NCBI GenBank assembly: GCA_021018995.1
Contig: CM037584.1
Location: 176,346,317 to 176,410,316, forward strand
DNA from: Chloranthus sessilifolius
Lineage: Eukaryota > Streptophyta > Magnoliopsida > Chloranthales > Chloranthaceae
Length of the DNA stretch: 64,000 nucleotides
Direction of reading: 5' to 3'
In this document: positions 1-60,053 of the stretch, one piece after another
Position numbering within the stretch: position 1 is the first letter of the stretch
Layout: every line of letters starts with the position of its first letter
Notes under the pieces: model-generated
Databases searched by the model: none
What the model was told of the DNA's origin: nothing
What the model saw: the letters and a program-made list of their open reading frames with translations, nothing else
Made by a program: the position numbers and the translations under genes

Positions 1-2822
1 ACACTAGGCTGGAAATGAAAGAAGATCTTGAAAGATATAAGCTTTTCAAAAGAGAAGCTAAGAAAGCCGTGAGTGAGGTTAAGAATGAAGCGTATGACAA
101 TTTGTACACAAGGGAAAGAAAGGAGAGAATGGAAAGCAAGGTTACGAAGGGATTAGATAATTTTTTAGACAAGGATTTAGCATTCTTGATAGAAAGGAAG
201 ATTTTGCTCAAAGGAGAGAACGAGTACCCATACTTTAACTAATGAAGATGAGCATTCATGCACAGATCTGAAAGAATTTGGAGACATGGTGGTGGATTAT
301 TTTAAAAGTATCTTTGTTAGGAGTATTCCTTTGAGAATAAAATTATCTTAATTGCAACTGGAGGATCTCACAACTCACAAGGGCCACCACTAATCAAGAG
401 ATAAAAGATGTTATCAATAATTCCACCAAAAATAAAGACCTAAGACTTGATGGATTCTCAGCTGAGTTCAACATGACTCAATGGGAAACAATATGACCTG
501 ACGCTCTTGAAGCTGTTGTTTCCTGCAAAGAAAAGAAAACTGCTTAGATCCTTTTTTAACTCTACTATTATTAAGCACAATTCTAAAGAACATGGTGTGG
601 ATTCTCTCTATAAGAATCGGCCAATTTCGCTTTGTAATCGGCCAATTTCGCTTTGTAATTTTATTTATAAGGTCATTGCTTTAATTCTTTGTAACCAGTT
701 ACCATTGTCCTTGCCTCATTTCCCATAACCAATCGACTTTTGTTAAGGGTAGGAGAATTTGTTATAATATTCTTCTAGCCCATGAATTGGTTCAAAATTC
801 CATAGATCTAATTCTAGTAGAGCCATTTGTTCCTAAGATTGATATGAGGAAAGACAGTATGGTGGGAATTTATGGAATGGGAATGCATCTCTTCTCCTTA
901 GTTTTCTTTTCCTATGACCGGTTCACCTGTTGGATATTTTTAGAGTACCTGCAGACTTAGACTAGGGGACCCACTACTCCCCTCTTATGAAGCCTCACCT
1001 ATTGCTTCATGAGAAGGTTATGCAAGGTAAAATTAAAATCCCCCGATATCCTAATTGCCCTGATGTTTCTCATTTCATTTTTGTTGATGATCTTATTTTT
1101 TCTAGGGAAAGTAATGAACTTTCTTTTGGAATAAGAGAGAACCTGGGTGTTTCATAGTTATTCAGGCCTAAGTGTTAATAACCAAAAGAGCAAAACCTTC
1201 TTTAGCTCGTCTTGCACCTCAAAATTCTGATTTGTAGTTATCTGGGATTTGAAGAAAGTATCCTTCCTATATTTGGGCCCCCCCTTTACTTACCACAAGA
1301 CTCGCTCTGTCTGTCAGTCTTTCATTGAAAGAATTTATCAAAAAGTCAAATCTTAGAAAGGTTTGTTTCTTTCCTATGTGAGAACATTGGAACTTATTAA
1401 ATTGGCCCTATATACCTATCAAATTTTTTGGTCGTCCACGTTTCTCATTCGTAAAAAAGTTTTGAAAAAATAAAATAAAAATTGAATTAACTCCTTTCTT
1501 TTCTTTGGAAAGGTCTTTCATTTACCCAATCTATGCACTGTGTTAGTTGGAATAGAATTTGTAAGTTAGTACATGAAGGAGGTCTCGGTCTATGGAAGCT
1601 TAAGCATTGGAATGATGATAGATTATTGAAGCTCTTGTGATCCTTAATATAAAATCCTGAGTGTTTATGAGCTCGATGGCAACTAGCTAGATATATTGGA
1701 ATAATGATCTTGTTGTATTTAAAATAAAGTTTCCTGGGCTTCACGAGGTATTATGAGAATTAGAGATGTGGCGAGAACAAAGATTTAGCTTATTGTGGGA
1801 ATGGGAAGAAGACTAGATTTTGGAAGGATCCTTGGCTCCTCAATGATCTTTGCTCTACCATTGTGGGAGGAGAACTATGCTTTATTCGACCATTGATGAA
1901 AATGGTTACGTTGAAAGTGTCATTGGAGGTGGGGAACTCGACTTTAATGAAGAAATTAAGGGTAGGAAGTTAGGGCTAGGTTAGGTGAAGAAGATAAATG
2001 AAGCAGAGAGAGAGAGAGAGAGAGAGTAGAATGGTAATCACAAATGACCTAGCTAGGGTTGGAGTCCCTACTAGCCTTTATATAAACACACAATGACAAG
2101 AATACTCTTACAACAAAAAATATATTATGACTAACACACCATAGTTCTACATATACATCAATATCCCAATAGGGGACTGGCTTTTACTCACCCAACAACT
2201 TATCGCCTCAACAAGTGAGGCAGGGAATTCATAATATGGGCCTCTGAATCCATGGTTAATGATGAGAATTTTTGGGCTCCCAATCCAATTAGATAAATTT
2301 CTTTAAAACAGCCTAAGAAACTATTAGGGTGCTGCGTAGTAAGGCGGATTAGCATAGCTTTGTTGGGCATCACAATTAGTATCCTATAGCATAGTTTCTG
2401 CTCTTGGATGACCATTGACTTTGGAGAATTTGATGAAGATGGTTTCTCATACAGTCTCCGTTTGTGTGTTGTGTTGGATTGCTTCTGAAACTAATGACCA
2501 TTTATATTTTGAATGCTCATATAGTAGATGGATAAAGAAATCGATTTTATATCGGCTTAATATAAAGGGGACTAGAATTGGAACGATTGAGGAGGAGTTT
2601 CATGATTTAAATATTAAAGCCAAGGGAAATGGGAGAGTGGGCTGCTTCATTAAGTTGACCTTCTGTGCCATTATATGGCATATTTAGGCCAAAAAAAATA
2701 AAAATACTAGAACTGAAAATTCTTCAAAACACAAGGTACTACTCTTGAAGGCAATGGTGCAAGATGTGGTCCTCACTAACAAGCAAAAATCGAAGATGGG
2801 TTAAACCAAAAAAAAAAAAAAA
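1..2822 (+). mobile_element. L1-type LINE, 3' part of ORF2, decayed
   Basis: Translated pieces in one orientation follow the order of a plant L1-type ORF2. The linker before the reverse transcriptase is at 15-240. An RT block resembling KxxGxDGFSAEF is near 436-470, and the RPISLCN block with IYKVIA follows near 615-680. The catalytic box reads FVDDLIF near 1075-1105. A zinc-finger tail (CVLC, then H and C in DHLYFEC) lies at 2455-2510 within an open frame at 2415-2687. A run of about 15 A at 2808-2822 fits the poly(A) tail of target-primed insertion. The frames change many times, so it is dead; the 5' part lies left of the window or is missing. A 20-bp stretch is duplicated in tandem at about 619-660. 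Its tail ends about 80 bp from the last golgin exon. Confidence 0.8.
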
Positions 2823-2902
2823 TTACCAAATTTGGTCCAAACATCCATCAAAAGGTAACATAGTAATTTTGAAATATATTACTAATGCCCAAATTTAAAT
2901 AC

Positions 2903-5900
2903 CTGAAGCTTGGAATTAAGCCTTTGCTTTTCTTCTTCAAATTCTCTGATCTAGATTACCCACATATAAACACACGAGAAAAAAATAAAGCATGAATGAT
3001 TAAATGCCTGCAACAAGAATGAAATTAACTTCAAATAATTGAGAAAATAGAGATATCTAATCCCATACCTGTGCCCTTAATTTTCTGATTTGAGATTCTT
3101 GAGTAGCTTGCTTCTTGGAAAGTTCTTCAACTGCATGAAAAACACATTAAAACACCAAAATATAGCAGCTAGACCTGCATATTAGAACATAACAATATAA
3201 TAGAATGGCCTGATAAAATCTGGAGAAGTCTATCTTACTTTAGAATTATCAACAGGGTCCCTATACTTCAGTGGATGAGCAAACAGCTACAATGGAAACT
3301 AAAAGTTACAGTTGAATACAGGACCAAACCACTGAGTCAATGATGGTATTAAAATTTTCACCATATCTGACAAAAAATGCTTGTTATGCAGTTCCATGAT
3401 GGTCTCCAATGGCCAAAATTATCTCCTAACTTGTAAGATGATGGAACTGCCCTTTCTCCCCAGAATCTCTGGTGCAGCTCAACCCTTGACATTCGGGCGG
3501 GCATGACTGCATTTGGGCTTCCAATTTATGAGATTCAAAAGCAAAATGGATGTCTACTCTCCGGATATAGATTTTCATTTAGAAATATATTCAAATTTCC
3601 CATCAATTAAGGAGTCTATTAAGTAAAAAATGTGATTTTATGAGTACCTAACGCATTCAATAATTTGTATTATTAGCTTCTTTGAATTGGTATTTTGATT
3701 AAATTAGGTTTCCATATTGCAGTAGGACTAGAGATTAGTATTGTAAACATCTACTTAGAGAGTCTGTAATTCAGATTTCTGTCGTTCGTATATTGTATAA
3801 TTATTACTTTGTAACCTTTCCTGTAACGATTTAGATTGTAGACTCTCCTACATCTTCTTGGCGTTTATCCATGAAGCCCTTGCAAGAGCTGGGTTTTCCT
3901 CTAAAAAAGCTTCCTGGAATCGTAGATTTTTACTGCATCAACCCATTATGTTGTGATGCCCATTTCAAGCTAGAAAGCCAAGGACTAGAGACTTACCCCA
4001 GTAAGTTTTCCAAGAAAATGACATTTATTGGGCAACGACCTCTAAAAGTTTTAGATCTGAATATTAGACATACTATTTTCCCAAATTTGCATTGCTTTAT
4101 TACTAGGTTACCTGAGAACTAACAAACTAAACAGGCTCTAGGTTGGTGGAAGGCTTGTCCTTTGACCACAAAGTGTCATTTTTTAGTTGGTAACTAGAGA
4201 ATGTACTAAATTAATGAAAGAAAGAATACAACAATCCGAATAGGGAACTCTTAAGTGAGATACTTGAGTACCTCCAAACAAGCACAAGGGCACAATACTC
4301 AAAAGAAAGCAAAGAGAATCAAGCTTCGACTGATGCTCTCAATGTCTGCAACCCAATTATTCCTAAGATCCTCCCCAGAGATTGAGGAAAAGAGAGGAGA
4401 AATGAAATCCCAACATACAATTCGATCCTTGATTTTGTATTTCAAGGTATCAACCAAGCCACCTTGACATAGGAATATTCTGTTGTTCCTTTCAGACCAA
4501 ATGCTCCACATTATGGCAGCTGGCACAAATTATCATAACACTTCACCTCTCCAGTTAAAGGGACCCAAACCTAAAAAGCTAGGAGATTAGCACGACAGTA
4601 AGGAAATAACCAATCCACACCAAATAAGCCCATAAAGAATACAAAAATCACAATCGAGGACACCTCCACCTAGCACATAATACATCTATCAGCCAAGGAC
4701 AGTCCTTAGTCGTTGGAGATGGCTCACCATAAATATTTTTGTCCCAACTCCCAAGCCGCTGTCCGCAAAAAAAGATGGCCCTTGATGGCACAGGAGACTT
4801 CTCCAGCTTAGTCTAATGATTCTCAATCAAATCCCTTCCACACAAAAATCTATAGGACTTAAGATGAGCCCTTAGCCTTCATTGACGACACCCTTTTATC
4901 TGTGGATAACAGAGCATGTACTTCTTCTAGGATACCTAATAGATTGGCGAGAATAATACATTCCTCCTCCCTTCAAACTGGTGTAAGAGGATGTTCCAAA
5001 ATACATGACACTCCATAACATCCATCACCACCACTTCCTTGGAAGTAGCAATCTGGTACAGAGGCCCCCCCAAAAGTTGGAAAACTGAATCTTACCTTAG
5101 TATAAATAATTCCACAACTTAGCTTCATTACCCAATCCAACTTTATATAGAACACTTCTCAAAGGAGTCCTTTACAAAGCAATCCCCTTTTTCCATCACC
5201 CGGATCCAAACAAAGCTTTCCCTGAGAAAATTCCGTAACTGTCCCTTAAGTAGCCATACTTGAGACCCCCATAAGTTTCTCTTTCCTCTCCTATCCTCCA
5301 TAGCCAAATTCATCTCCCTAAGCCTCCTAATTCCAAGGCCACCTCCTTTTTAGTAAACCAAACAGTCCAATTAACCAAGTGGAATTTTCAACCAAAGCCT
5401 CCAGTGCTCCAAAGTAATTGTTTTTCAATTCTTTCTAGTTTCTTCAATATGCTTACCAATCTTCGGAACGTAGGCATATATATACCACTATCCCAGTATG
5501 TTGGCGAGAGGTTGCCTTGATAAAGTTAAGCTTCCCCCACTGATAGGAGGTTACATTTCCAAATCACTAACTTCCTTTTGAGCCTTTCCACAATCGGATC
5601 CCATAAAGACTTCAGAGGCTTTCCAATACATAGAGGAATCCAAGATAAGTGTCAAGCACAAACCTAACGAAATGTCGAGACAAGAACCTAACTATATCAA
5701 GGAATATATGGAATTAATTATCAATTTTATAGAAGTTAAAAAGAAAACAATAAGAAGTTATTTCAACAATGTTTACTTTGTACCCAACCACACTAGAGAA
5801 CAAGATACTGTTGGATAATCAAGGAGCCTTGAGTGCCCAAGACTTGGAACAAGTAATCTGTAACTTTATTTTCACTTGGAGAGCACAATCAGTATTGCTT

Positions 5901-22371: not shown

Positions 22372-22810
22372 ATGGATACCTCTATTAGCGCCCACGCAAT
22401 CTCTGAAAGTACCTTCATTGGAAACCCCTTCAAAACAATTGATTGCTTCGGATCAGATGATGGAGATCGTGTTTTTCTCCGATCTTTCACACAATGGATC
22501 ATGAGATCACGTCGCACCTATCAGATGATTAGGTTTTCATGCCACATGTCACAGATCCCCAAAAAATGGCTCTAAAATCACGTTTGAACTTGATGTGTGC
22601 CATAGGATTCAAGCGACATTTTTTGGGATCTGTGATATGTTGAATAAACAAACAACCGTCTAATAGGTGAGACATGATCTCAACATCCGTTGTATGAAAG
22701 ATCGCTGTGAAACACGATCTCTATCATCTGATCCTAAGCAATTAATGGTTTTGAAGAGGTTTCCGATGTGGATGCTTTCAGAGATTGTGTGAGCGGTAAT
22801 AGAAGTACCC
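22372..22810. repeat. Long palindromic foldback element, best intact A-type copy
   Basis: The left end GGATACCTCTATTAGCGC and the complement of the right end (GGGTACTTCTATTACCGC) pair, and pairing goes on through most of both arms to a centre near 22590. The arms of about 210 bp flank a short spacer. No transposase. The length of the arms suggests a Mutator-like element rather than a short MITE. Confidence 0.75.
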
Positions 22811-22849
22811 ATACTTAATTGGCCAATGAAAATTCTTTAAGGGTACCAT

Positions 22850-23275
22850 TAGTCACACCCGTGGAACTGTGATCTCACCCTATCTCTTCCAGCCAGCATG
22901 CATTGACCACCTCTGAGTTGGACAATGGAGATCATTTTTCATTTCAATCTTCCACATAATGGATCTTTAGATCATGGGCGGACCATCAAACTGCTAGTGT
23001 TTGATTACGTGTGGGACACATCTCAAAAAGTGACCCTAAAATCATGCTTGAGCATGATGTTTGTCAAATGATTTTCAGGCCACTTTTTTGGTATGTGTGC
23101 CACGTGGAATAGCAAATGGCCTTATGATAGAACGCCCATGATTATATGATCTGTTGTGTGAAAGATTGATATGAAAAACAATCTCCATCATCTGATTCTA
23201 AGGCGATCAATGCATGCCGGTTGGAAAAGATTGGTGAGATCACAAATTCACAGGGTAAAAATAATGGTTCCCATT
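22850..23275. repeat. Long palindromic foldback element, B-type copy
   Basis: The arms contain CCAGCATGCATTGACC and its inverted partner near 23210-23230, and GACACATCTCAAAAAGTGAC with its partner near 23085. The centre is near 23060. Confidence 0.7.
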
Positions 23276-27899: not shown

Positions 27900-28320
27900 T
27901 TAGGGTACCTTTAATTTCAGCCCAAGATTCTTCATTCTCGATCCGAGCTTCACGTGCTTAAACTGTTGACTTTTTGAATCCGAAGATCGAGATCGTTTCT
28001 TTGTCAATTTTCCACACAATAGAACTTTAGATCACGGTCCTATCATCGGACAGTCATATTTTTTTTCAGCGTGGCACACCTCATGAAAAGTGGTCAGAGA
28101 ATCACTTTTGGTGTATGCTCATGATCTTGCTCATTTTTGGGATGTGTGCCACGCGGAATCAAAATGTGGAGGTCTGATGATAGGCCCATGATCTCAATAT
28201 TTAGTATGTAGAAGATTGGGATGAAAAATGGTCTCCATCATCTGATTCAAATCAGTCAACGGTTTAAGCAGCGTGAAACCCAGGTTAAAAAGGAAGAATC
28301 TTAGGTTGAAAACAAAGGTG
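27900..28320. repeat. Foldback family copy
   Basis: The left arm has GAAGATCGAGATCGTTTC and the right arm GGGATGAAAAATGGTCTCCA. The outer ends pair as AAGGTGCCC-type words. The centre is near 28115. Confidence 0.6.
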
Positions 28321-28807
28321 CCCTTTTTATTGTTATTGTTATTATTTTGGTTCGGTAAATAGTTTTTTATTTTTGCTCACATGTTTATTTTTCTTCGAAT
28401 AGTCAAGCTAATTTTTATCACACTCTTTCAAAAGCCCTTATCAAAAGAATTGTTAGATTTCATTTGCTTAGTGTTCGCACGCTTTGTCTCTTTGCAAATT
28501 AAATAAAATTCTTCTACGGACATATCTATTTCATTAACCATATAAGTAATTGCAGAACTCTTTAGCTTCCAGAACTCTTTAGCTTCCAAAGTGGAATTCT
28601 CAAGCACAATAAAACTCTTGAGCACCTATATTTTCTCCTCCCTAAAACTTTATCGGGGATTACCTCATTATCCCAATAAAAATTCTTAATTGAAGTCTAA
28701 TTACAGTATATAATTAATCTATATAACTCTTTTGTAATCAAAGTGTGTTTCTTGTGTCACACGATCGATAATGGGAAGAGAAAGAGGTTCATGGGAACGC
28801 GATTAAA

Positions 28808-31671: not shown

Positions 31672-32639
31672 TTTTTGTTATAATGAGATTTGGATGCTTC
31701 TTAATACTAATGATTCTTATTTCTGTAGGTTTATTTGAATAATTCGAATTTGATTATTATATTTTTATCTTTCGATTCGGATTTGTATGAGTACAGGTTT
31801 TTTTTTTCTTTTCATTCCTTCTTCATAATTTCTATACATGCAATTCTGAAGAAGCAAAAAGGAAATGCATGTATTCGTGGGGCGCACTGAGAAGTTTTTA
31901 AGGGGTCTGATGTAAATGGCAGTAAGTATTGTGCAAGTAGTAGGTCCTTGTTAATTATTGGAATTAAATGAAATCTTTCAATTGTATCCCTGACTTCAAT
32001 ACTTGGGGGTGGATATAGAAATTTAGTCTTTAGAATTAACAAAAGTATCTACCTTCTATTTTAATTTTTAATTTTGAGTATTTCAATTATATATTTTCCC
32101 TTACAGTCATGGGATTTGAACTGAGCAGAGCTACATGAAAGGTGGCAATTTTTAATATCAACTACATTAGTGGCAACCAAATTTTTCAAAAGGTTTTCAT
32201 AATGTGTAGAAACGTAGTCAAGGGGACACCTCTTAAATAGGCCTTGTCCCATGAAACCTTTGATTGAGTTCTTTGTCAATATAGTATACAATTATGTAAA
32301 GCAAATGAGTACACTAGATAATAAGGTGGGATTTTCGATTTTCAATTTGTAAGCACGCAATTTATATGAGGAGATCAATTTCATATTTTAAAAAAGAAAG
32401 CTATTTATATGATTTATAATTTTCACGTTTCATGTGGAGTTCACAAAAAATAATGAAATGATAAGCACCACGTGGCTTTTTGGAGTTATCAGAAAACCTA
32501 TAGGTACCATAAAATATGAGATCAGTTGCATAATAATCTTAAGAATTAAAATGTTGAATCAATTTGTCACTACTTGGAGTTTCAATTTTGTTTAGGATTT
32601 CATTGAATGCGTTTATGAGAAGTTTTAAATTCTACAAGG

Positions 32640-32815
32640 CATACATCCCAAAAAGTGATTCTTATTGTGGGTCATTTGATTTAAGGGTCACTTTTTGATA
32701 TTATCTGCCATGTGATTTAAGGGTTACTTTTTGGTACACTCGTGACCTCAAGATCCATATTGTGGGAGATTGGAATAAAAAATGATCTCCATGGTTTAAT
32801 TTAAAGTGGTGAATA
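32640..32815. repeat. Foldback family, shortened copy
   Basis: CATCCCAAAAAGTGATTCTT and GATTGGAATAAAAAATGATC blocks in opposite senses. It matches 43950-44125 in unit 2. Confidence 0.5.
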
Positions 32816-32889
32816 ACAAATTCGTTAGACTTTTCCATGTTCTTCTCTCACGTGCAACGCACGTGCATTCAACTAGTATATATAAATTA

Positions 32890-32892
<3 letters not shown>

Positions 32893-32937
<45 letters not shown>
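32893..32937. repeat. (TA)n next to a Helitron 3' end
   Basis: A TA run that begins 16 bp after CTAG of Helitron C. Confidence 0.85.
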
Positions 32938-32939
<2 letters not shown>

Positions 32940-33297
32940 GAGTCGGTACCGTCCTCTATGCGAGAATGGTCACCGTCCTCCAAAGTCTACGTAGAGGTGC
33001 ACATGACACCCAAAATACTCTTTGTTGCCACGTGGTGTACGGGTGGATGGTTTAAATTAATTTAAAAAAAAGAAATTTCGAAAAAAGCTTTTTAAAAGCA
33101 TAAGTGAATGTTTGATTAGGTTTAATGGTCTACATTTCACAGCTCAAAAATACATGGTGGAGATGAATTTTCAAATTATATATTTTTTTTAAATGATCTA
33201 AGCAATGCACACGAGGTCCATGCGCCATTGAAACAATGTTTTGGATGCCACGTGGACCTCCACCTGGAACCTTAGAGGACGGTGACCAGGTCAACTC
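32937..33297. repeat. Foldback element, second family
   Basis: The ends GGTCACCGTCCTCCAAAGTC and the complement of GACCTCCACCTGGAACC plus CTTAGAGGACGGTGACC pair with each other. Centre near 33110. It matches 44205-44545. Confidence 0.65.
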
Positions 33298-34503
33298 AAA
33301 TTGCGCTCTATAGTTTTTCTTAGGATATTTGACCCTAATGACTCTACACCCATCTTTTTCACTCATTTCATTGAATTTTTTACTTTCCATGATCTCCACC
33401 TAATTTTATCCACAATTCTATTTAAACCCCAGTTAGCTCTTCTTAGCCTACCCAATTAGTGCATCCTCATCCCTTAGCAATCTTTGATTAGAGACATGTG
33501 TCTCAATCCAAAGGTTATTCTTAGTGGAAATTAATTAGCATAATTCTTGTGTTCTATTTGTTGCCAATCATGGTTTGACATTTATCTTCCCATATGGTTT
33601 GACATTTGTCTTCCCACATGACAAACCTTAATTGACTTATTTTTTTTACTAGCACAACTCTTTTTTTTTTTTTTTTTAATAACTCTACTAGCACAACTTT
33701 AGGATAAAAACCCTTTTTCTAATTGAAAGTTGTCATTAGAGGAGACAAACACAAGCCTTTGTGCTTTTGAATGAGCCAATAGGAGCTGGACATGTAGCCT
33801 TAGCTACCCAATTGGCTACAAACAGAAGCTTTCTCCTCCAAGGGCAACAAATTGTTAAATTTCTAAATCCTAGTTCTTTCTATTATATTGAGATTTGGAT
33901 GCGTTTTTATTTCTGTAAGTTTATTTGAATAATTTGAATTTATTCGGGATTTGTATGAGTACAGTTTTTTTTTTTTCTTTCTTCTTCATAATTTCTATAC
34001 ATTCAATTGTGAAGAAGAAACAAAAAAGGAAATGCATGTATTCATGGGGCACAAAGTTTTTAAGGGTTGTGATGGAAATGGCCGTAAGTATTGTGCAAGT
34101 AGTGGCTCCTTGTTAATTATTGGAATTAAATGAAATTATATATTTACCTTCTATTTTAATTTTTAATTTTGATTATTTCAGTTATATGTTTTCCTATGGG
34201 ACACTTCTTAGATAGGCGTTTACCCAAAAAATATCGATTGAGATTCATCAATATCATGTAGTCAACAATGGGCAACAGAGTGTAGTTTCTGTTGAAAAAG
34301 TAAACCCTCTTTTTTTGGTTGTGGTTTCTAAGAGTGCTTTTCTATGAGCTGCTGCTACATGTGAGTATACAACTTATGAGCTGTTGTTGCTACGTGAAAT
34401 GATTAATTTACTTGCTCTCAAAATATATGTTGTCACTCTTAGATTCAAATGCTCAATTCTTATATTTTTTGGTTCTTTTGAGATGCTCAACATTTTATTG
34501 TTA

Positions 34504-34505
<2 letters not shown>

Positions 34506-34565
<60 letters not shown>
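34506..34565. repeat. (TA)n microsatellite, about 60 bp
   Basis: A pure TA run about 75 bp before the first recognised exon of the En/Spm-type gene. Confidence 0.9.
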
Positions 34566-34568
<3 letters not shown>

Positions 34569-34640
34569 AATGCCCAGGGTACATGTATTTTGAACATGTT
34601 GAGATTTAATGAGATTATTTGATATTTTTATTTGTGTCAG

Positions 34641-36019
34641 ATGGCCGTAGATCCACCTACCCCACCCCACCCGCTAACGTTAAGAAAGGGCGAGGGAAAG
34701 CAGTACTTGGTTTTAAAAATAAAATGAAAGGAGGAGAGAAAATTCTTGTGCTATTGTATAAGGGGCATGTCGTAGGGGATGATCAAAGTAAGATGTCCTC
34801 GATGATTGGGCAAATAGCGAAGGATTGCATTAGATTTCCTGTAAATGTTCCAAACTTTACAGATATTCCTAAGGAGAGTTTCAAAAGTGCTTATGAGGAG
34901 TTGATGGTAACAAATGACATAGTTATATTAAATAATTAAATTCTTTATTTTCTATTTCATATTCACATTGATTGATAATCAATTTTGTTGATTAAATGTA
35001 GGAAGTTTTTGACATGCCTTCCTATGATGACATTTATCGATGGCTGCACTATACCTTGCTTCAGAGATGGAAGGCTAATCGATATCATATAAAAAAAAGG
35101 CACTTCGACCCCTACACAACTACGGGAGAACGATTTGCCCATTGCCCCGATAATGTGGATAACGACCAGTGGAAGTCGATTGTCCGTTACTGGGAGTGTG
35201 AGGAGTTTAAGGTAAATTTCTAACTCATTGTTTATTTAAAAAATTTTTTTTTTATTAATATAACATATTATAATTTTGTATGATATAGGTAATTAGTGAG
35301 CGTAATAAAAGAAATCGCGCAAAGCTAGCCGTACCGAGTACAACCGGAAACATTACTCACATAAATAAATTTTACAAGGTATTAACATGCAAATATAAAT
35401 TATAATTTGTCAATAAACTTCTACTTTTTATAGTTTACACATTAAACTCGTTATTTTTTATAGTTAAAGCAGGTAGAGGGGAAATCACCCTCAAGGATGC
35501 AGAACTGGAAGTTGAATCACACAAAAAAAGATGGTAAACCGGTGAACGACGCAACAGAGATAATGGTAAGATGATTTGTTAATTTATAAGATATTTTTAA
35601 AATAATAATTAAATATTTAATTTATATGAAAAAATTTCAGCAAAAGATAGATGAACGACTTGCGGAGGACTCACAAGAGTCCACTGGACGAGATAATGTA
35701 TTATCTCAGGTATTGGGATCAGACACACGTGGTCGCGTCCGGGGCTTTGGGGGGGCAGTGACCCCAGCAAGCATTTTCGGACCGTCGTCGTCTAGGGGAG
35801 GGGGGCAGGAGGTCCGCCAATTGAAAGAAGAAGTGAGCACCTTGAGAGAAGAGCTTGAAGCAATGAAGTGGTTGATCACTCGATTGATCGGAACAATGGT
35901 AAACATTACTTTAAAACTTCTATACAAATTTTTCTCTTGTAGTTTTCTATAATTTGTCATGCTAACAAACATTCATTTTCTTTCTGTAGCCCCCTCCACC
36001 GCCGCCGCCTCAACAATAG
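34641..36019 (+). CDS. En/Spm-type transposon protein (plant Transposase_24 family)
   Basis: Six exons join cleanly, with all internal junctions in phase 0: about 34641-34906, 35002-35211, 35289-35378, 35464-35565, 35641-35898 and 35990-36019 (stop TAG). The protein opens with a basic GRRSTYPTP stretch and has the fold-like block GEKILVLLYKGHVVGDD. The family core follows: YRWLHYTLLQRWKANRYHIK, then DNDQWKSIVRYWECEEFK, then VISERNKRNRAKL. It continues with WKLNHTKKDGKPVNDATEIM, a coiled coil (QLKEEVSTLREELEAMK) and a short PPPPPPPQQ tail. This is the companion gene of plant CACTA elements (Ptta/En/Spm), thought to bind element ends. No stop or shift is seen, so it may still be expressed. Exon 1 enters in phase 1 after AG, so the start codon must lie in an unseen upstream exon. 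Confidence 0.8.
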
Positions 36020-37960
36020 GCTCTCCTCCACAACACTTTGAATGGGTATACATTTTGGATGGGTATGTTATTTATTGATGAAGTTATTGATTTTTTAATC
36101 TTTAAAAGACTAATTTTTGGGGAGCTTCAGAAGATAATTTTTGTTCATAACCTCTGAAATTATCTTGCTTCATATGTTTAGATTGTTCCTGCTGTTATCT
36201 TCTCCATATTCTAAGTTAATAATGTTGTGCTTTTTTTGCATATTGTTCACTGATTTGTTATTCTATTGGGTGATGGGGTGAACGACTATTGATTTGAGTA
36301 ATTCATTTAGCTGTTTTAGGTTCTAAAAATGACCAAGTTGAAGAGGAGATTGGAGTAGGTGAAGCTGAAGAGACTGAAGCAGGCGAGGATGATCGTGCTG
36401 ATGTTCATGAAATGGTGATAACGTGGAAGAGTGAGGATGGTAATGGCAGTGTTGGTGATTGTGGTGATCGTTGGTGGATTGTTGGTGATTGTGGTGGTTT
36501 GTTATTCTAATACATTGGTTTGACAATCTTATTTTTTATTTTTTAGCGCATTAGAGCTGTCATCAGATTTTAGCAAACTAAATACCTTGCATTAGAGCTG
36601 CCATCAGGTTTTAGCGAACTAAATACCTCGTTTAGGGCGCTTTGAACCAAAAAAATAACTAGATTTGACTAATGGTGCTGCCCCTAAGTGACAATAATCA
36701 TAGGCAAGGCTATCTATTCCTTCAGACTAATGGGAAACCTAGTAAGGAATGCTTAGCAGGTTTGATCCAAACTGTTGGGCTTTTTTTTTTTTTTTCCTTT
36801 TGTATTTTGAGTTGGGTTGGGTCAGCTCAACCTTACCTGATTAGGCTCAAGGCCTCAACTATAACCGAACCCAATGAGCAACTCCTCTGGTTGGGTTTCT
36901 TTTCTGCTTGTTAAATTTGTCATTCTTTGCGTTTCTTTTCTGCTTGTGGATTGGTTCCATATTTTGTCCATTTGAGGATTGGTCAACACTTTTGTAGCAT
37001 TTGGTGCACTTTCTGATATGACAAAATTAAATATATTGCTTTGTTTCATATTTGTTTTCTAAGCAGCCAATCAATGGGTATTTAGCTTTGCAAGTCCCTA
37101 TTTTCTGTTATCAGCTTTTAAGGTCTGTATTTATTAATTAATAAATAGTCTAAAAAAAGAAAGTTTATACAAGGCAGTTGAAGATTCTCATTTTAAAAAA
37201 AGGAGGGACACAGATTGTTTGGTTTTTCTGTAATAGCATTTGAATAATAAAAAAAGGAGGGACACAAAAAGCCTTCACCACAACATGTTTAGTTTTTCCT
37301 TCAGTTTTATACAAACTAAAACTGATGCTACTTAATCTATGGAAGCTGGTGGGTTGATTGACAGGTGGTGAGGAGAATGCATGACATGTGGAAGGGAACA
37401 AGCACGTGTCGGAATAATGGGAGATCGGCCGACAACACTTTGATGGAGATCCATTTTTTATTATTTAATATTATTTAATTTGAGTTGCTCAAAGTTTCTA
37501 GGTTTAACGACTTTGGAGGATCTTTAAAGTCTTAGCCGCAGGCATATTAGCCAATCTGGCCGTGAAGGTACCATTCTGTTTCTTTCAATTGAATGGAATG
37601 TTCTGAAGGTACCATTACATTTCTTTCTTCTACCATTAAAACTGATCCTACACTCTATATTGCTTTGTCGGATAGCCAATTTAAAGGTATTTTTTATGGC
37701 GAGATAAGAGGATTTGAGACCGGATGGAGAAATGGATGGCATGTGATTGCATTATAACAAAGGTATTTTAATTGCTCCCTTCTAAGGCATTATAACAAAG
37801 GATGCTGAAGCTAGTTCAAAGTTAATTTCCCATGTTAATTTCTAAATTTTAATGCTGTATGCTTTTATGAAAATTATAATTTTATAAACGGAGTTTTCCT
37901 TTTTACTAGATCTTTTTACTTGTTTAGATGATATATACTGATGCATCTTTTATATTTCAG
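36020..37960. other. CACTA interior, no gene identified
   Basis: A tandem duplication of about 47 bp lies at 36545-36630 (GCATTAGAGCTGCCATCAGG units). An acidic frame at about 36325-36500 reads EEEIGVGEAEETEAGEDDRA and could be a captured exon of unknown origin. Two copies of AAAGGAGGGACACA are near 37195 and 37255. Confidence 0.4.
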
Positions 37961-38055
37961 ACTCCTACACACGTGTGTTTGATAACAGACTTTTGCGCTG
38001 GTGGTGAGCTATTTGCATTGCTTGATATATTTTGTTCCCTGATGACTTTCACAGA

Positions 38056-38135
38056 TTCCTTGTAGCAACCCAATCGGTGTTGGTACACAGTAGCATTGGC
38101 AATTCCTTGTAGCAACCCAATCGGTGTTGTGGTGT
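38056..38135. repeat. Short direct duplication
   Basis: Two copies of ATTCCTTGTAGCAACCCAAT followed by CGGTGTTG, 45 bp apart. Another local duplication (TTTTAGGTAATTTC with CAGTCACGAGCATCTAT) lies at about 39192-39293. Confidence 0.6.
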
Positions 38136-40972
38136 TGTTCGCCTGATTCGATAAGGAAAAGTAATTTCCAAAAGGATGGAAAATATTTGTTAACATGAAA
38201 GGTTTTTAACCATGACTAAAGAATCAGTTTTAAAGTGTTTTAAAAGACTAAAATGAGCCAGATTTTGTTATTCAGTTTATCGTATAATCCATTGGCATAT
38301 TTGCAGATGCCTACTTACATTAATTGTATAGCTAGTTGGGCATCTATCTCCATTATGTCTCCTTGGGACTACCGCTCCGAAGAGGTAGGGCTTGCTGAGT
38401 GGTGGTTCTTTACTCACTCCTGCTTTTATCTGAGAGAGGAATCGAGGACAGAAAGGTAGAGCATTGCAGAAGATAGCAGAGTGAAGAAGAAGGTAAGTCC
38501 ATGAGAGTATATATTGTAAAAATGTGAGAAGTAGTCAGCGAGTTGTGTATAGTAGGAGACTCCAGTTATTAACAAGTCAGTTGTACTTATACACATTTTG
38601 GCCTAATATGGAAATGGAACAAAATTTCTGTTGGTTGTGCATATTAATTGTTGCATTTGAATTATTGTTCTGTTATATGCTTCTATTCTAGTCCCTTTGT
38701 TGCCAGGTCCTATATGTTTGTGTGAATGACACATCCAATCTGGATAGGTGGATTTGGGGTGTTAGTTTGGTATTAGAGCCTAGGTTTTGGCAACCGCTAT
38801 GCACAATGCATGGTGTTGGGACTTGTGGAGTATTGGCGTCTCAACGGTCTCTAAGCATTGTATGTGGGGACACTGACCTATAATATTGATTGTGTCAGGA
38901 AGACAAGATGCCTAAACTTTTTTGATTTTTGATTTTTCATCAGGGAACAAAATCTGACTTCTACAGACATCCTGCCAGAAATCTGTGAAAGTCATCTTTT
39001 GACAGATATATTTGGTAGTTATAAAAATATATTTTGTTCCCTGAACACACGTGTGTTCAGTTTTGAGGCCCCAACTCAAATATATTTTGTAGGCTTATAT
39101 TTTATTAAATAGTTATTCAGTTACCTTTGAATTATATATTTATTAGATATTTATGCAGTTATTTGTGCGTTTTTCTCCTTGAGGTTTATTCAGTCACGAG
39201 CATCTATTGGATCCTTTTAGGTAATTTCAGTCACGAGCATCTATAAACTGATCCATGGCTTTCATACTATTGGATCCTTTTAGGTAATTTCATTTCATTT
39301 TACATTTCACTATTCAAATAAGATGTTAAGTTTATGTAACCAATTAGTAGTCAATTAAATTGTAATCTCCTTTGATGAGGTTTCATGATCACATGTATTA
39401 AGAGAGTTGCAGAGTCTCTGCCCATTTATTATAAAAATTAAAAATTATATTCGAGTATATTTATAATTAAAATCTTTAAATGCCACTATGTAGCAAGTGC
39501 CTTTTCAAACATGGAAGAGGTCATATAGGGTCTTTTTGGTTTATCATTTAATTTTGTCTAAAGGTCTCAAATTTTGTGAAAATATTGAAAAATGAGAAAA
39601 AGGAGTGTGTGTGTGTGTGTCCTAAGAAGCTTTGGCTCTGCTTTTGGCACCACTCACCAGTCACCACCATGAATGCTGAAAGTATTGGATTGCATGTTCA
39701 TTGAGTTCGTGATTGGAACTTATCTCTTGAACGTGGTTATGGGTAGTGTAGATTCATTTTTCTTATTTGTAGTTTTTTGAGATTGACTGGTCAATGGTGT
39801 TAGATTCATTTATACCAGCTTAAATATAAGTTCTAAAAGCATGTAACAATTTCCACAAGAGGCCTTTTGCAAAGTAAATGACAGGAGCTTAAAGCCAGAA
39901 GAAAAGCTTTGCTAATAATAGCACACACAGAAAAAGACAAGCCTCTTTAAAAAGAAGTTCTTGGCTATTGGGTTCTTAGCTAACTGTTGTAATTTCGGAA
40001 GCTCGTTATATGGAATTTGATTATTTTTATTTCTGAGGATATGAATCAGGACCTTGTAATGGACTACTTTGTTGGCAAACCACCAAACATTATAAAGGAA
40101 AGGTAAACCACCAAACATTATTGTATCTCTTAGTATTTCAGGTAATTTATTTATTTATATTTTTTGTCAGTAAACCTTTAATTTTAGCATACAAGGGACA
40201 TGAGTCTTTTTTGTTTATATATTAAACTAGGTTAAGCAAGGAACTCGTGTTCCTTCACATAAGCCTGGAAGCTTTTCATTGTTTGGACGCTGTTTGAAGT
40301 CAAGGACACTGAAGAACAGGTGAAGATGGAGTGGCAAATATCAAAGATTTGGGATTTCAATTTCAGTTTTCTTTATTCTATTTTTACATGGGAAATGGTT
40401 TCACCATTTGCACTGAGATTTTCATATTTCGGTGGCGTGATTTTTCCAAAGAAGCGGGATCTCACCAACCATGTTGCACAAATTATGTCATTTTTGGGGT
40501 GGGTCACGCTTGCACCCAATCATGTGGTGCCTTACGAGGTTTTTAACTCAGGTGCCCTTTTACAAATGAGCCATTTTTGGGGGGGATATAAGAGAAAAAA
40601 ATACTGTGGTGGGTCCTGTCATTAGCTTTTGCTTTTGCTATTTTTATTTAATTTTCATAAATGTAAACCACTATTGTTTTCCCAATAGTTTATAGTTATG
40701 AGTTCATGGCTGTGTAATGGCCACTTTTTGATGGTTTTATTCATCTGATAATTGGAACAAAATCTGTGTGATTCAGTTCTTATTGGTTACATGTTCCAGT
40801 TCTTGGCATGTATACATATTAAAAGAGTTGGTATTAGGTAACCCGAACCAAATGCCGGCGGATATTGTTGAGCACCAAATCAGTTGAAGGTCAGAAGTGT
40901 ACTGTCACTGTTTTGGTTTGTTACTTTTTACGTGGTATGAACTTCAGTCTTAATCCAAATTTCCTTGTCCAG
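38136..40972. other. CACTA interior between the two phototropin pieces
   Basis: No protein family recognised. Overlapping frames at 40320-40625 look non-coding. A palindromic ACACACGTGTGT is at about 39045. Confidence 0.4.
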
Positions 40973-41411
40973 GTTTTATGTTGCAGAGGTTGCAATTGGC
41001 TTGGAATATCTTCATTTTCTAGGTAATTTTTTCAACTGATATCAACATAATCAGTTATACTTGGAAAAAAAGTTGGGAGTTAAAAACCAAAATGGGTTAT
41101 CCATGCAAGTAATTTTTTTATCAGAAACACATAACCACTCATTTTGACAGTTAAATAACTGCATATTACAAACCCCCCACCAATATAATGTAATCTTAAA
41201 TCATTTCCAGATTATTAGATTTGTTTTGTAGCTAATGGTTTTTAGTCATATGTACCTTTGTTTTAGTCTTTTTAATTCTTTATATCTCATCGACAAGAAT
41301 TATCCAGATTTACTTTTTTCTTCTCAACATGAACAGGGACGACTGTTTTGTGAGAATCTCTCTTTTAGCATTCTGTTGCTAAAATAAGTAATTGTGGAAT
41401 GAACTTAACTG

Positions 41412-41573
41412 ATGTGGAATTTTATTTATTTTTAAATTTGGAGGGTAAAATAAGTAATTGTGGTAGATACCAATGAAATCTGGTTTTTGCAAATAAGAGC
41501 AGAATTCCCTGCATCATTAAGTCTTTTTGTGCTCTTATATCATTGATATCTTAATCCTTACTATCGTTGATAT
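41412..41573. repeat. Direct repeat left of the NLA piece
   Basis: About 160 bp starting GTGGAATTTTATTTATTTTT, near-identical to 42622-42775. Confidence 0.75.
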
Positions 41574-41589
41574 CTTTTGCTCTGTTCAG

Positions 41590-42408
41590 ATTCATTACTC
41601 GAAGCAAGGGCAACCTTTCAAGTCCCAAGCCCTAAGTATGCATATTGAAGTATTGCAATCTCCGTGGCTCTGTGAATTGATGGCTTTTCACATTAACTTG
41701 AGAAAGCAAGCCCGATACGAGGGCAGTTACGGGGTTGTTTGAGGACTGCTTGCTCTTATTTGATGGCGGAAAGCTGACGCTTTCGTGTGCTTTGTTTGAT
41801 TCTATGAAGGTTGAGATTGATCTGATTTGTTCGATCTGTTTGGTAAGTTGTTCGATATGTATCGGAAAACCGATATTTTGATCCATGCTTGCAATCTCTC
41901 AAGTAAATCTGAGCCGATCGTTATGATGCCGAAATTGATGGCTGATATATGTTTTATATTGTACGATTTCTATTTAAAACTTTTGTTCATTGATTTAGAG
42001 TAATTGATAGAAGAACATAAACCAACGTTATAAAATGACCAAATAATCATCTTGGTATATGGAAGCACACAAATATACTTATATTTAGCATAAATATATT
42101 CATATCTGCAACATGAATCTAACATTTACTTTGATTTTGTTGGGTTTTATGGTGATAAAAAAAAAAAATTAATGTTTATGGGTGGTCTGATTATAACAAA
42201 AAACCATTGGTAATTTCGTATGTGTGATTAATACGTTTTATTTTTATTGTAATTTTCATCTTTATTTCAGGATACGGTGTTCGATCCAGTGTCTCTTACA
42301 TGTGGTCACATATTTTGCTACATGTGTGCTTGTTCTGCTGCATCAGTGACCATCGTTGATGGACTAAAGGCCGCAGAGCCTAAAGCAAAATGCCCTCTAT
42401 GTCGACAG
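41590..42408 (+). pseudogene. NLA: NLA/BAH1-like RING ubiquitin ligase fragment
   Basis: Exon piece 41590-41842 reads [20 protein letters not shown] and [19 protein letters not shown], then after a frame change near 41735 [20 protein letters not shown] and ends [11 protein letters not shown]. The next exon, 42271-42408, is open and reads [36 protein letters not shown] and KCPLCRQ. Together they hold the C-terminal part of NLA (BAH1), an SPX-RING E3 ligase that controls nitrate and phosphate transporters. All RING cysteines and the histidine ([17 protein letters not shown]) remain. The N-terminal SPX domain and the last exon are missing, and the frameshift in the first piece makes it a pseudogene. 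Splice signals around both pieces are conserved, so the copy came from DNA with introns rather than from mRNA. Confidence 0.85.
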
Positions 42409-42621
42409 GTAAATATCACCTATCTATTCTTCTTTTCTTGTTTTTTCTTCTAAAATTTGTTATGACCCCAAATTAATAAGAGCTAAACTTTCGACTCCAT
42501 TAATGCCTAGGCATTACTGATAGATTGGTTAGGTCCTTAAAAAATGGGATCGTAATTACGTGTCTCAAGTTGAAGTCCCGGAAGGGGCAACCTGGGGAGA
42601 GGGCTATGTAGGGGCCCACAA

Positions 42622-42775
42622 AAAGTGGAATTTTATTTATTTTTAAATTTGGAGGGTAAAATAAGTAATTGTGGTAGATACCAATGAAATCTGGTTTTTG
42701 CAAATAAGAGCAGAATTCCCTGCATCATAAGTCTTTTTGTGCTCTTATATCGTTGATATCTTAATCCTTACTATG
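42622..42775. repeat. Direct repeat right of the NLA piece
   Basis: Second copy of the 41412-41573 sequence, in the same orientation. Confidence 0.75.
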
Positions 42776-42841
42776 TTGTGTACACTCTATGACTCGATTC
42801 TTGGAGAAATTATTAACTTTTTTTTTTTTTGAATTTGATAG

Positions 42842-42990
42842 GAATGGCAGTTGCTAGAGATCTAGTAGGGAAGAACAACCATATAATCTCTATGATTGGA
42901 GATGGAGCCATGACTACTGGACAAGCTTACGAAGCCATGACTACTGGATACCTCTAAAAATGAGAGTCATTATTTGTATAAATAAATTTG
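42842..42990 (+). pseudogene. DXS: DXS (1-deoxy-D-xylulose-5-phosphate synthase) exon fragment
   Basis: After a T-rich tract and AG, the plus strand reads [20 protein letters not shown] then [12 protein letters not shown]. This is the thiamine-diphosphate binding segment (GDGAMT) of DXS, the first enzyme of the plastid MEP isoprenoid pathway. After GYL a stop follows, but the next frame resumes KMRVII, as in the GYLDxxMxVIL of the family, so one indel broke it. Only about 45 residues out of roughly 700 remain. Confidence 0.8.
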
Positions 42991-43197
42991 TTGTTAATGA
43001 AATTGCGGTGTCGTGAATTAAAATTTACTTTTCTGAATGAGCTTTGACCATGTTAATGTTTATGCTAATGTGAGTATATAAATGCATGTTATGGATTTTC
43101 ATAAAAAAAATAAAATAAAATGGAGGTTATAGATGTGTACTGCTAGACAATATTGTCCTGGAGCAAAAAAATTAAATAGCATTAAAAATAAAAAAAA

Positions 43198-43495
43198 TAT
43201 TGGAGACGACTTTTGGTCGTCTCCAATAACAGGCAATCACTTATCGGAGACGGCCAAAAGCCGTCTCTAATAATAAGAGATGACTTATTAGAGACGGCTT
43301 TAAGCTGTCTCCAACATATCTTTGGAGACGGTCATATGCCGTCTCCAATAACTTTGACTATGAGGGACAGCTTCCATTTAGTCTCCAAAAATAATGGAGA
43401 CGGGACTATTTGAGACTACATGGAAGCCGTCTCCAATACTATTGGAGACGACTTAGACACCTTTGGAGACTGCCAAAAGCCGTCTCCAATAAACA
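43198..43495. repeat. CACTA subterminal repeat array
   Basis: About ten GGAGACGGC / GCCGTCTCC units alternate in direct and inverted order, many as small hairpins around TTTTGG (for example ATTGGAGACGACTTTTGG followed by its complement). Such arrays are the binding sites for TnpA-type proteins just inside CACTA ends. The array ends 5 bp before the ACATTTTTTGTAGTA terminus. The left side resembles the right in mirror image (AAAAAAAATATTGGAGACG), so this might also be a small CACTA MITE. Confidence 0.7.
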
Positions 43496-43949
43496 CATTT
43501 TTTGTAGTATTTTTAGAAGTATACAAGCATAACTCTCATTAATTGTGGCTCACATTTAAAGAATTTGACTTTTGTCCATTTATCATTTTTAAATTATGAT
43601 TATAGATTTGGTCTAAGATTACACATGAGCTCTTTTTCAATCTCATATATAAGAAGGTTAAAGTCGTTAACAAAGGTGAGATTTTCGATTTTCAGTTTGT
43701 AAACACGCAATTTATACGAGGAGATTGAATTTTATATTAAAAAAAGCAAGCTATTTATATGATTTATAATTTTCAGTGGAGTTCACAAAAAATAATGAAA
43801 TGACTGTTGGTGTGAATAGAGGTACCATAAAATATGAAATCAGTTGCATAATAATCTTAAGATTTGAAATGTTGAATCAATTTGTCAGAGTTTCAATTTT
43901 GTTTTGGATTTCATTGAACGCGAGAAGTTTTAAATTCTACAAGGCATAC

Positions 43950-59773: not shown

Positions 59774-60053
59774 TATTGATTGGGTTCGCAAACAGAAAAT
59801 GAGACTCCATCACTACAAAAGGGGTTAATTGTAAAGACTCGAAGCTGATGACGAAAATGATCTTTTTTGTACCACAAAACTTAACTGCAAGCTTGTCTTT
59901 TTAGAAATAACAGAAATACTGTGAGCTATCATCTCTCTTTCTACATGTAGAGCTCCCTTAAATAATTGAGCTATGCAACTTGACACTTCATCTTTAGAAT
60001 GTTGGCATGTTGAGAGAACATAAGCATACCATCACAGCATCTAGGTCAAAAAT
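58762..60053. other. S1P intron, no gene recognised
   Basis: Contains a (TG)n at 58908-58930, a hAT-like GGCCC-rich stretch at 59340-59400, a (TA)n at 59719-59770 and a CACTACAAAAGGGG word at 59812. Confidence 0.5.
59719..59770. repeat. (TA)n microsatellite
   Basis: A TA run of about 52 bp. Confidence 0.9.

Follow-up and report, generated by a model that had tools for sequence, protein, structure and literature searches.

CACTA transposons are known to carry fragments of host genes. Tgm-Express1, a soybean CACTA element from the wp allele, is described with five host gene fragments and their introns in 5.7 kb between inverted repeats (PMC1947982), and maize Pack-TYPE elements often carry several loci, Pack-CACTA most of all (PMC8903248). 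CACTA elements with several captured genes are thus already known. In this study, which was based on a 64,000-bp stretch of the Chloranthus sessilifolius genome (C1:176346317-176410316, hereafter the window) and on searches of 2.17 Gb in 32 contigs, of which C1-C15 appear to be the chromosomes and C16 measures 6 Mb, we analysed a CACTA-derived insert that holds fragments of three or more unrelated host genes, namely a RING ligase that we take to be NLA, a kinase and DXS. The NLA piece was probably acquired by template switching. A preliminary description of the window had called three captured genes in one element striking, which the soybean and maize precedents do not bear out.

The insert resembles Tgm-Express1 in being CACTA DNA with several unrelated host gene fragments that keep their introns and splice sites (PMC1947982). 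It differs in that the window copy is 5'-truncated and its full sister, c4, measures 18.75 kb and has tnp2 matches. With the Pack-CACTA elements of Arabidopsis, rice and maize, as they are presented in PMC8903248, it shares the terminal inverted repeat (TIR) CACTACAA, captured coding DNA and several loci per element. That article groups Pack-CACTA as non-autonomous and transposase-less; the tnp2 matches of c4 extend over three frames. The account of fusion between neighbouring insertions in that article was inferred from grouped elements. Here, by contrast, the donor, pre-capture sisters and post-capture copies share one genome, and the junctions show a refill and a 150-bp duplication. The tandem-insertion model for Pack-CACTA is also the one presented in a 2026 review (PMC13317346). 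For animal Pack-TIR elements, breakpoint microhomology was described and template switching proposed (gap filling or FoSTeST), and the same source called testing these mechanisms in plant Pack-MULEs "worth exploring" (PMC8277862); the likeness to our locus lies in the microhomology and the switching, and the difference in its being a plant CACTA with multi-step capture. Among literature titles and the openings of abstracts, we found no junction-level before and after states of a CACTA capture together with the donor, which is not a claim that none is in print.

The NLA piece before and after capture

For the comparison with the window copy, ten sister copies (c2-c11) were used, with 20 kb taken upstream of the right end of each. 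The features at the NLA piece are as follows.

41414..41564, + strand: R1, the copy of the duplicated element stretch on the left side of NLA; single in sisters without NLA
41565..41576, + strand: 12-bp refill CGTTGATATCTT, re-copied from adjacent upstream element sequence, with the final 5 bases (ATCTT) common to NLA
41572..42625, + strand: captured NLA piece, contiguous and with introns; exons about 41590-41842 and 42271-42408 (RING)
42625..42774, + strand: R2, the copy of the duplicated element stretch on the right side of NLA; single in sisters without NLA

The piece (1,054 bp) matches C15:1862932-1863990 as a single stretch at 98% identity, introns included, among the best 40 of 404 candidates. 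The introns and the high identity indicate that DNA and not spliced RNA was captured, and recently. A RING domain was recognised in it by Pfam. A protein search with 24/24 candidates scored placed NLA exons in only three element copies, those of the window, c4 and c9, and its remaining matches were the C15 locus and more distant loci at 49-62%. The piece lies beside the DXS piece and, in the window and c4, the kinase pieces as well; sisters without NLA also carry DXS and kinase pieces. Relative to c4 and c9, the NLA exon of the window has lost 2 bp.

In six aligned sisters (c2, c3, c5, c6, c10 and c11), the 150-bp element stretch is single and NLA is absent, the stretch being slightly altered in c11. 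Where NLA is present, R1 and R2 are nearly identical, differing by one substitution and two gap positions in the window, by one gap position without substitution in c4, and by one substitution and six gap positions in c9. At the left junction, element sequence continues as far as CCTTACTAT, after which CGTTGATATCTT is re-copied from just upstream and overlaps NLA by five bases. No element trace was found at the parent NLA locus in the 150 bp read at each junction. These states would be accounted for by template switching while an element copy was being repaired or replicated: the nascent strand would leave the element, re-copy about 12 bp, switch to NLA at the 5-bp microhomology and later rejoin the element some 150 bp upstream of its departure point. 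We consider this the probable origin of the NLA piece.

A second event was seen when c2 was compared with c5. An insertion of 2437 bp in c2 is flanked by identical 194-bp duplicates and starts with 16 bp re-copied from the element upstream, which lead into a piece of a high-copy retrotransposon. Among the best 40 of 3515 candidates, most copies elsewhere match from query base 108, which indicates about ten bases shared at the c2 junction. In 200,000 random pairs drawn from the element pool and the window, the chance of a refill match within 50 bp upstream was 2.4e-4 for at least 12 bp and 1.7e-4 for at least 16 bp. Both events fit a back-slip, a jump at microhomology and a return 150-194 bp upstream.

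Two observations concern the inserted DNA itself. Within the captured NLA intron, positions 42453-42626 form a repeat (about 170 bp) that has dozens of genomic relatives with 69-83% identity; it is probably a short interspersed nuclear element (SINE)- or miniature inverted-repeat transposable element (MITE)-like element that was carried in with the NLA piece. The insertion in c2 (minus strand, 2288-4724 of the fetched sequence) consists of 2.4 kb of a high-copy long terminal repeat (LTR) retrotransposon region, in which there is presumably a tRNA-Met-type primer site.

Borders, termini and family of the insert

34040..34257, strand not applicable: left host flank; the empty paralogue matches through CAATATCAT (34257)
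34258..43509, + strand: CACTA remnant, the 3' part of a longer element without left terminus, as determined from sister copies and the empty paralogue
43201..43490, + strand: subterminal GGAGACGGC/GCCGTCTCC array
43498..43509, + strand: right terminus TTTTTTGTAGTA; TTTTTTGTAGTG in 12 of 15 other plus-oriented copies read
43510..43799, strand not applicable: right host flank; contiguous with the left flank in the empty paralogue

The joined flanks (34040-34254 and 43510-43799) match C1:175940396-175940925, an empty paralogue 0.45 Mb from the insert, over 505/505 query bases at 95% identity and without interruption across the insertion point. This places the insert at 34258-43509, with the left border uncertain by 2 bp, and corrects the borders of 34255-43511 given previously. 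In the 90 letters read of the empty paralogue, CAATATCAT is followed by 22 host bases and then by TTTTTAGAAG; in the window the insert replaces those 22 bases. The preliminary description had defined the insertion against a tandem empty copy at 31672-33877. The insertion itself was confirmed by the paralogue, but the tandem copy, although 91% identical to the insert flanks over 1774 aligned positions, is too gapped and ambiguous at the junction to fix the borders. The host unit is a dispersed repeat with 54 matches to the joined flanks, most of them partial (24/24 candidates scored). The interval 43510-43667 was ruled out as insert sequence, as it occurs in the empty paralogue.

The proposed CACTA-like right end with its subterminal array held up: 43190-43508 was found again at 95-100% in the best 40 of 1064 candidate places, the window among them. 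The right ends of the 15 other plus-oriented copies read are TTTTTTGTAGTG in 12 cases and carry one altered base in three. The insert does not end in TTTTTTGTAGTG, as had been stated, but reads ...GTAGTA, its last base mutated to A. A family-type CACTACAA left end is present in 8/10 sisters, with element lengths of 7.4-18.8 kb, and the same proportion has inverted termini CACTA...TAGTG, of which the window copy has the right one alone with the changed final base. No family left end was found within 20 kb in c2 and c10. Matching 3-bp flanking duplications occur in seven of the eight left-bounded sisters, c7 being the exception. An occurrence of CACTACAA at window position 59811 was rejected as a further family member, since its initial bases differ and c3, c4 and c6 gave no match there.

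Sister c4 (C4:98.0 Mb) has both termini, a left subterminal array and ATG/ATG flanks. The whole of window 34256-43508 is matched in it, with the Transposase_24 gene and the host gene pieces; substitutions amount to 2.04% of the 9177 aligned positions. The host gene fragments thus lie between CACTA termini in c4, a feature of Pack-CACTA. In c3, c4, c8 and c11 homology to the window begins at 34256, yet the elements extend upstream to their own CACTACAA. The tnp2 domain (PF02992) and associated domains, spread over several frames, lie in the part of c4 that the window copy lacks; searches of both strands of the insert at E 0.05 and 0.01 gave no tnp2 match. Measured against c4, the window copy is missing the initial 9.45 kb of the element, and measured against the empty paralogue, 22 bp of host DNA. 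The insert is, therefore, very probably the 3' part of a Pack-CACTA-type element from a recently active, multi-copy family. What had been described as a CACTA element is indeed CACTA-derived, but without a left CACTA end it is, judged by these alignments, a 5'-truncated remnant and not a complete element with both termini, and autonomous movement is accordingly not expected of it. Likewise, the expectation that the same terminal repeats bracket the interval in other copies is borne out for the family by c4 and fails for the left side of the window copy.

The missing segment ends close to the expected left terminus, which suggests abortive excision: the element would have been cut near its left terminus and then resected inwards. 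We give this explanation of the lost end an even chance. Two points count against it, namely that c4 serves as a stand-in for the lost 5' part of the window copy, and that the tandem copy at 31672-33877 also lacks the 22 host bases, so that the 22-bp loss is polarised by the closer paralogue alone.

Elsewhere in the window, long imperfect self-inverted (fold-back) repeats were observed at 22372-22812, 22841-23272 and 27902-28324, and the first two are in part similar to a stretch of c4 (69-71% identity).

Other genes and foreign DNA in the insert

34640..36019, + strand: Transposase_24 (En/Spm accessory) gene; exons 34640-34906, 35002-35211, 35289-35378, 35464-35565, 35641-35898 and 35990-36019
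37961..38028, + strand: AGC-kinase exon piece, presumably phototropin-like, with its 3' part replaced at 38028; the exon is complete in c7 and c8
38076..38918, + strand: further foreign segment, repeat-like; 95% to C8:83801814-83802662, with more distant relatives too (best 40 of 67 candidates)
40973..41022, + strand: second AGC-kinase exon piece, presumably phototropin-like, found by protein and Pfam search of the joined query
42841..42939, + strand: captured DXS piece of 33 codons, with PDB and Pfam matches; widespread in the family

The En/Spm-type gene can be spliced cleanly in its sequence, as had been reported: its six-exon reading has GT..AG introns and 318 codons without an internal stop, and matches PF03004 (Transposase_24) at E=8.1e-24. 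It has no ATG start, and 5' exons may be absent. Compared with six sisters, the frame has 1-14 codons that differ synonymously and 11-44 that differ nonsynonymously; indels occur in 6/6 sisters and stops in 4/6, and purifying selection on it was rejected on these grounds. A Pfam search of the plus frames of the insert (X at stops) returned DXS and, just under the cut-off, Transposase_24 and nothing else; its minus-strand frames gave nothing.

The claim that CACTA-derived DNA here carries parts of three or more unrelated host genes was upheld, and in c4 both termini bracket them. Their identities were confirmed for DXS (by PDB and Pfam), for the RING domain and for an AGC-type kinase; phototropin and NLA are names that we presume. 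The search for the expected parents led from the DXS piece to plant DXS in PDB (E=3.8e-11; Pfam DXP_synthase_N). The joined kinase query, made of the window exons and the exon end from c7/c8, had RSK kinases as its best PDB matches (1.3e-8; Pfam Pkinase). All three pieces lie on the plus strand, as described, and their remaining intron ends are preserved, but later DNA truncates the first kinase exon at 38028. As for the same fragments in other copies, c4 has all of them, NLA was found in three copies and DXS is widespread.

Judging by sequence identity and by the copies that carry them, the host pieces were acquired at different times, with DXS old and widespread in the family, the kinase older than NLA, and NLA recent. 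As protein, the DXS piece has 91 matches in the genome (101/101 candidates scored), most of them apparently in CACTA copies, and as DNA, 42779-43100 is 94-100% identical in the best 40 of 381 candidate places. The presumed host DXS genes, recognised by lower identity and open frames of 103-144 codons, have only 61-79% protein identity to the piece, and its capture therefore looks old. In up to 29 copies it has 5 synonymous, 20 nonsynonymous and 1 stop variants per 22 synonymous and 77 nonsynonymous sites; it varies as if neutral, and purifying selection was rejected. The likeliest kinase source is C2:164290930 (68% identity over 38 residues), which we infer to be a host gene. The first kinase piece recurs in about ten further copies, which match only to 38028. 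A single capture of all three pieces was excluded by the 98% DNA identity of NLA against at most 79% protein identity for DXS and 68% for the kinase; the occurrence of the kinase piece in copies without NLA also counts against joint capture.

The 18-bp ATATATTTTGTTCCCTGA occurs twice, at 38025-38042 and 39027-39044, close to either end of the 1-kb segment replacing the end of the kinase exon, and the palindrome ACACACGTGTGT is found in the first kinase exon and at the right junction of the segment; these are perhaps another template-switch scar. The interval 38020-38539 also occurs at C10:27.13 Mb, where the protein search found no NLA. The regions 36230-37965 and 39188-40913 are mosaics of segments common to other loci, sisters included (best 40 of 146 and best 40 of 200 candidates, respectively), and no further gene was named among their pieces.

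Routes of gene capture

The published Pack-CACTA route would also yield an element-host-element arrangement with overlap. Two elements with one orientation would insert to the left and right of NLA, aberrant excision would leave them with complementary terminal deletions, and their hybrid would then transpose as one, as proposed for Pack-CACTA (PMC13317346, PMC8903248). It is supported by grouped elements that resemble two smaller ones fused with the DNA between them, with similar CACTA and hAT examples, in the account of PMC8903248, and by the window copy itself, which bears a 5' terminal deletion. However, although the elements are 7.4-18.8 kb long, two independent deletions would have to coincide to within 150 bp in the NLA case and to within 194 bp in the second event; the refilled bases at the departure junction of both events are not predicted; and the 150 bp read at each parent junction hold no element trace. 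We regard tandem insertion as possible but unlikely here. It is improbable that NLA was joined as filler into a staggered break with overhangs of about 150 bp that were then filled in to give the flanking duplicates: this accounts for the short duplicates and the refilled bases but requires long overhangs and free NLA fragments, and the 5-bp microhomology and contiguous 1-kb NLA piece suit copying equally or better. Direct repeats able to recombine would also allow NLA to be ancestral and to have been lost from the sisters by recombination between the 150-bp duplicates, a reading that differs in direction alone. NLA was, however, found in three element copies only, six of the sisters read show the single-copy state without it, and its 98% identity to the source makes it young, which leaves ancestral NLA very improbable. 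That the captured pieces make up a working chimeric gene maintained by selection seems hardly credible, even though splice sites are preserved and the Transposase_24 frame is open in the window, given the unconstrained variation of DXS, the 2-bp loss in the window NLA exon, and the indels and stops of the Transposase_24 frame in the sisters. Among the sequence comparisons made here, there was no sign that the captured pieces of the remnant function.

Several points weigh against template switching as the explanation. Fusions of two elements are reported in other families (PMC8903248), and two terminally deleted elements flanking host DNA would also give overlapping segments. The clean events with long duplicates number two among 11 copies (the window and c2-c11), and for the second the "before" state is seen in c5 alone, the sole other fetched copy with that stretch. 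End joining, too, can yield refilled bases. The right NLA junction has just 1 shared bp, and the other insertions scanned mostly show overlaps of at most 10 bp or small gaps (gaps of up to 30 bp were allowed). The direct repeats in c3 and c7 have complex histories that cannot be reduced to a pair of before and after states; further direct repeats were detected in c8 and c10, and short ones in c2, c4 and c9. Among the copies examined here, no "before" state of the DXS capture was found.

How TIR transposons pick up genes is an unsettled question. Because donor, pre-capture and post-capture states of a family with many recent copies survive together in one genome, template switching and tandem insertion can be separated by counting junctions. 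On a modest balance of the evidence, this family, and perhaps plant CACTA elements generally, would gain gene pieces by microhomology-guided template switching, with a back-slip, a jump and a return 150-200 bp upstream, and not by the fusion of neighbours, a reading that the donor and the states before and after capture in one genome can prove.

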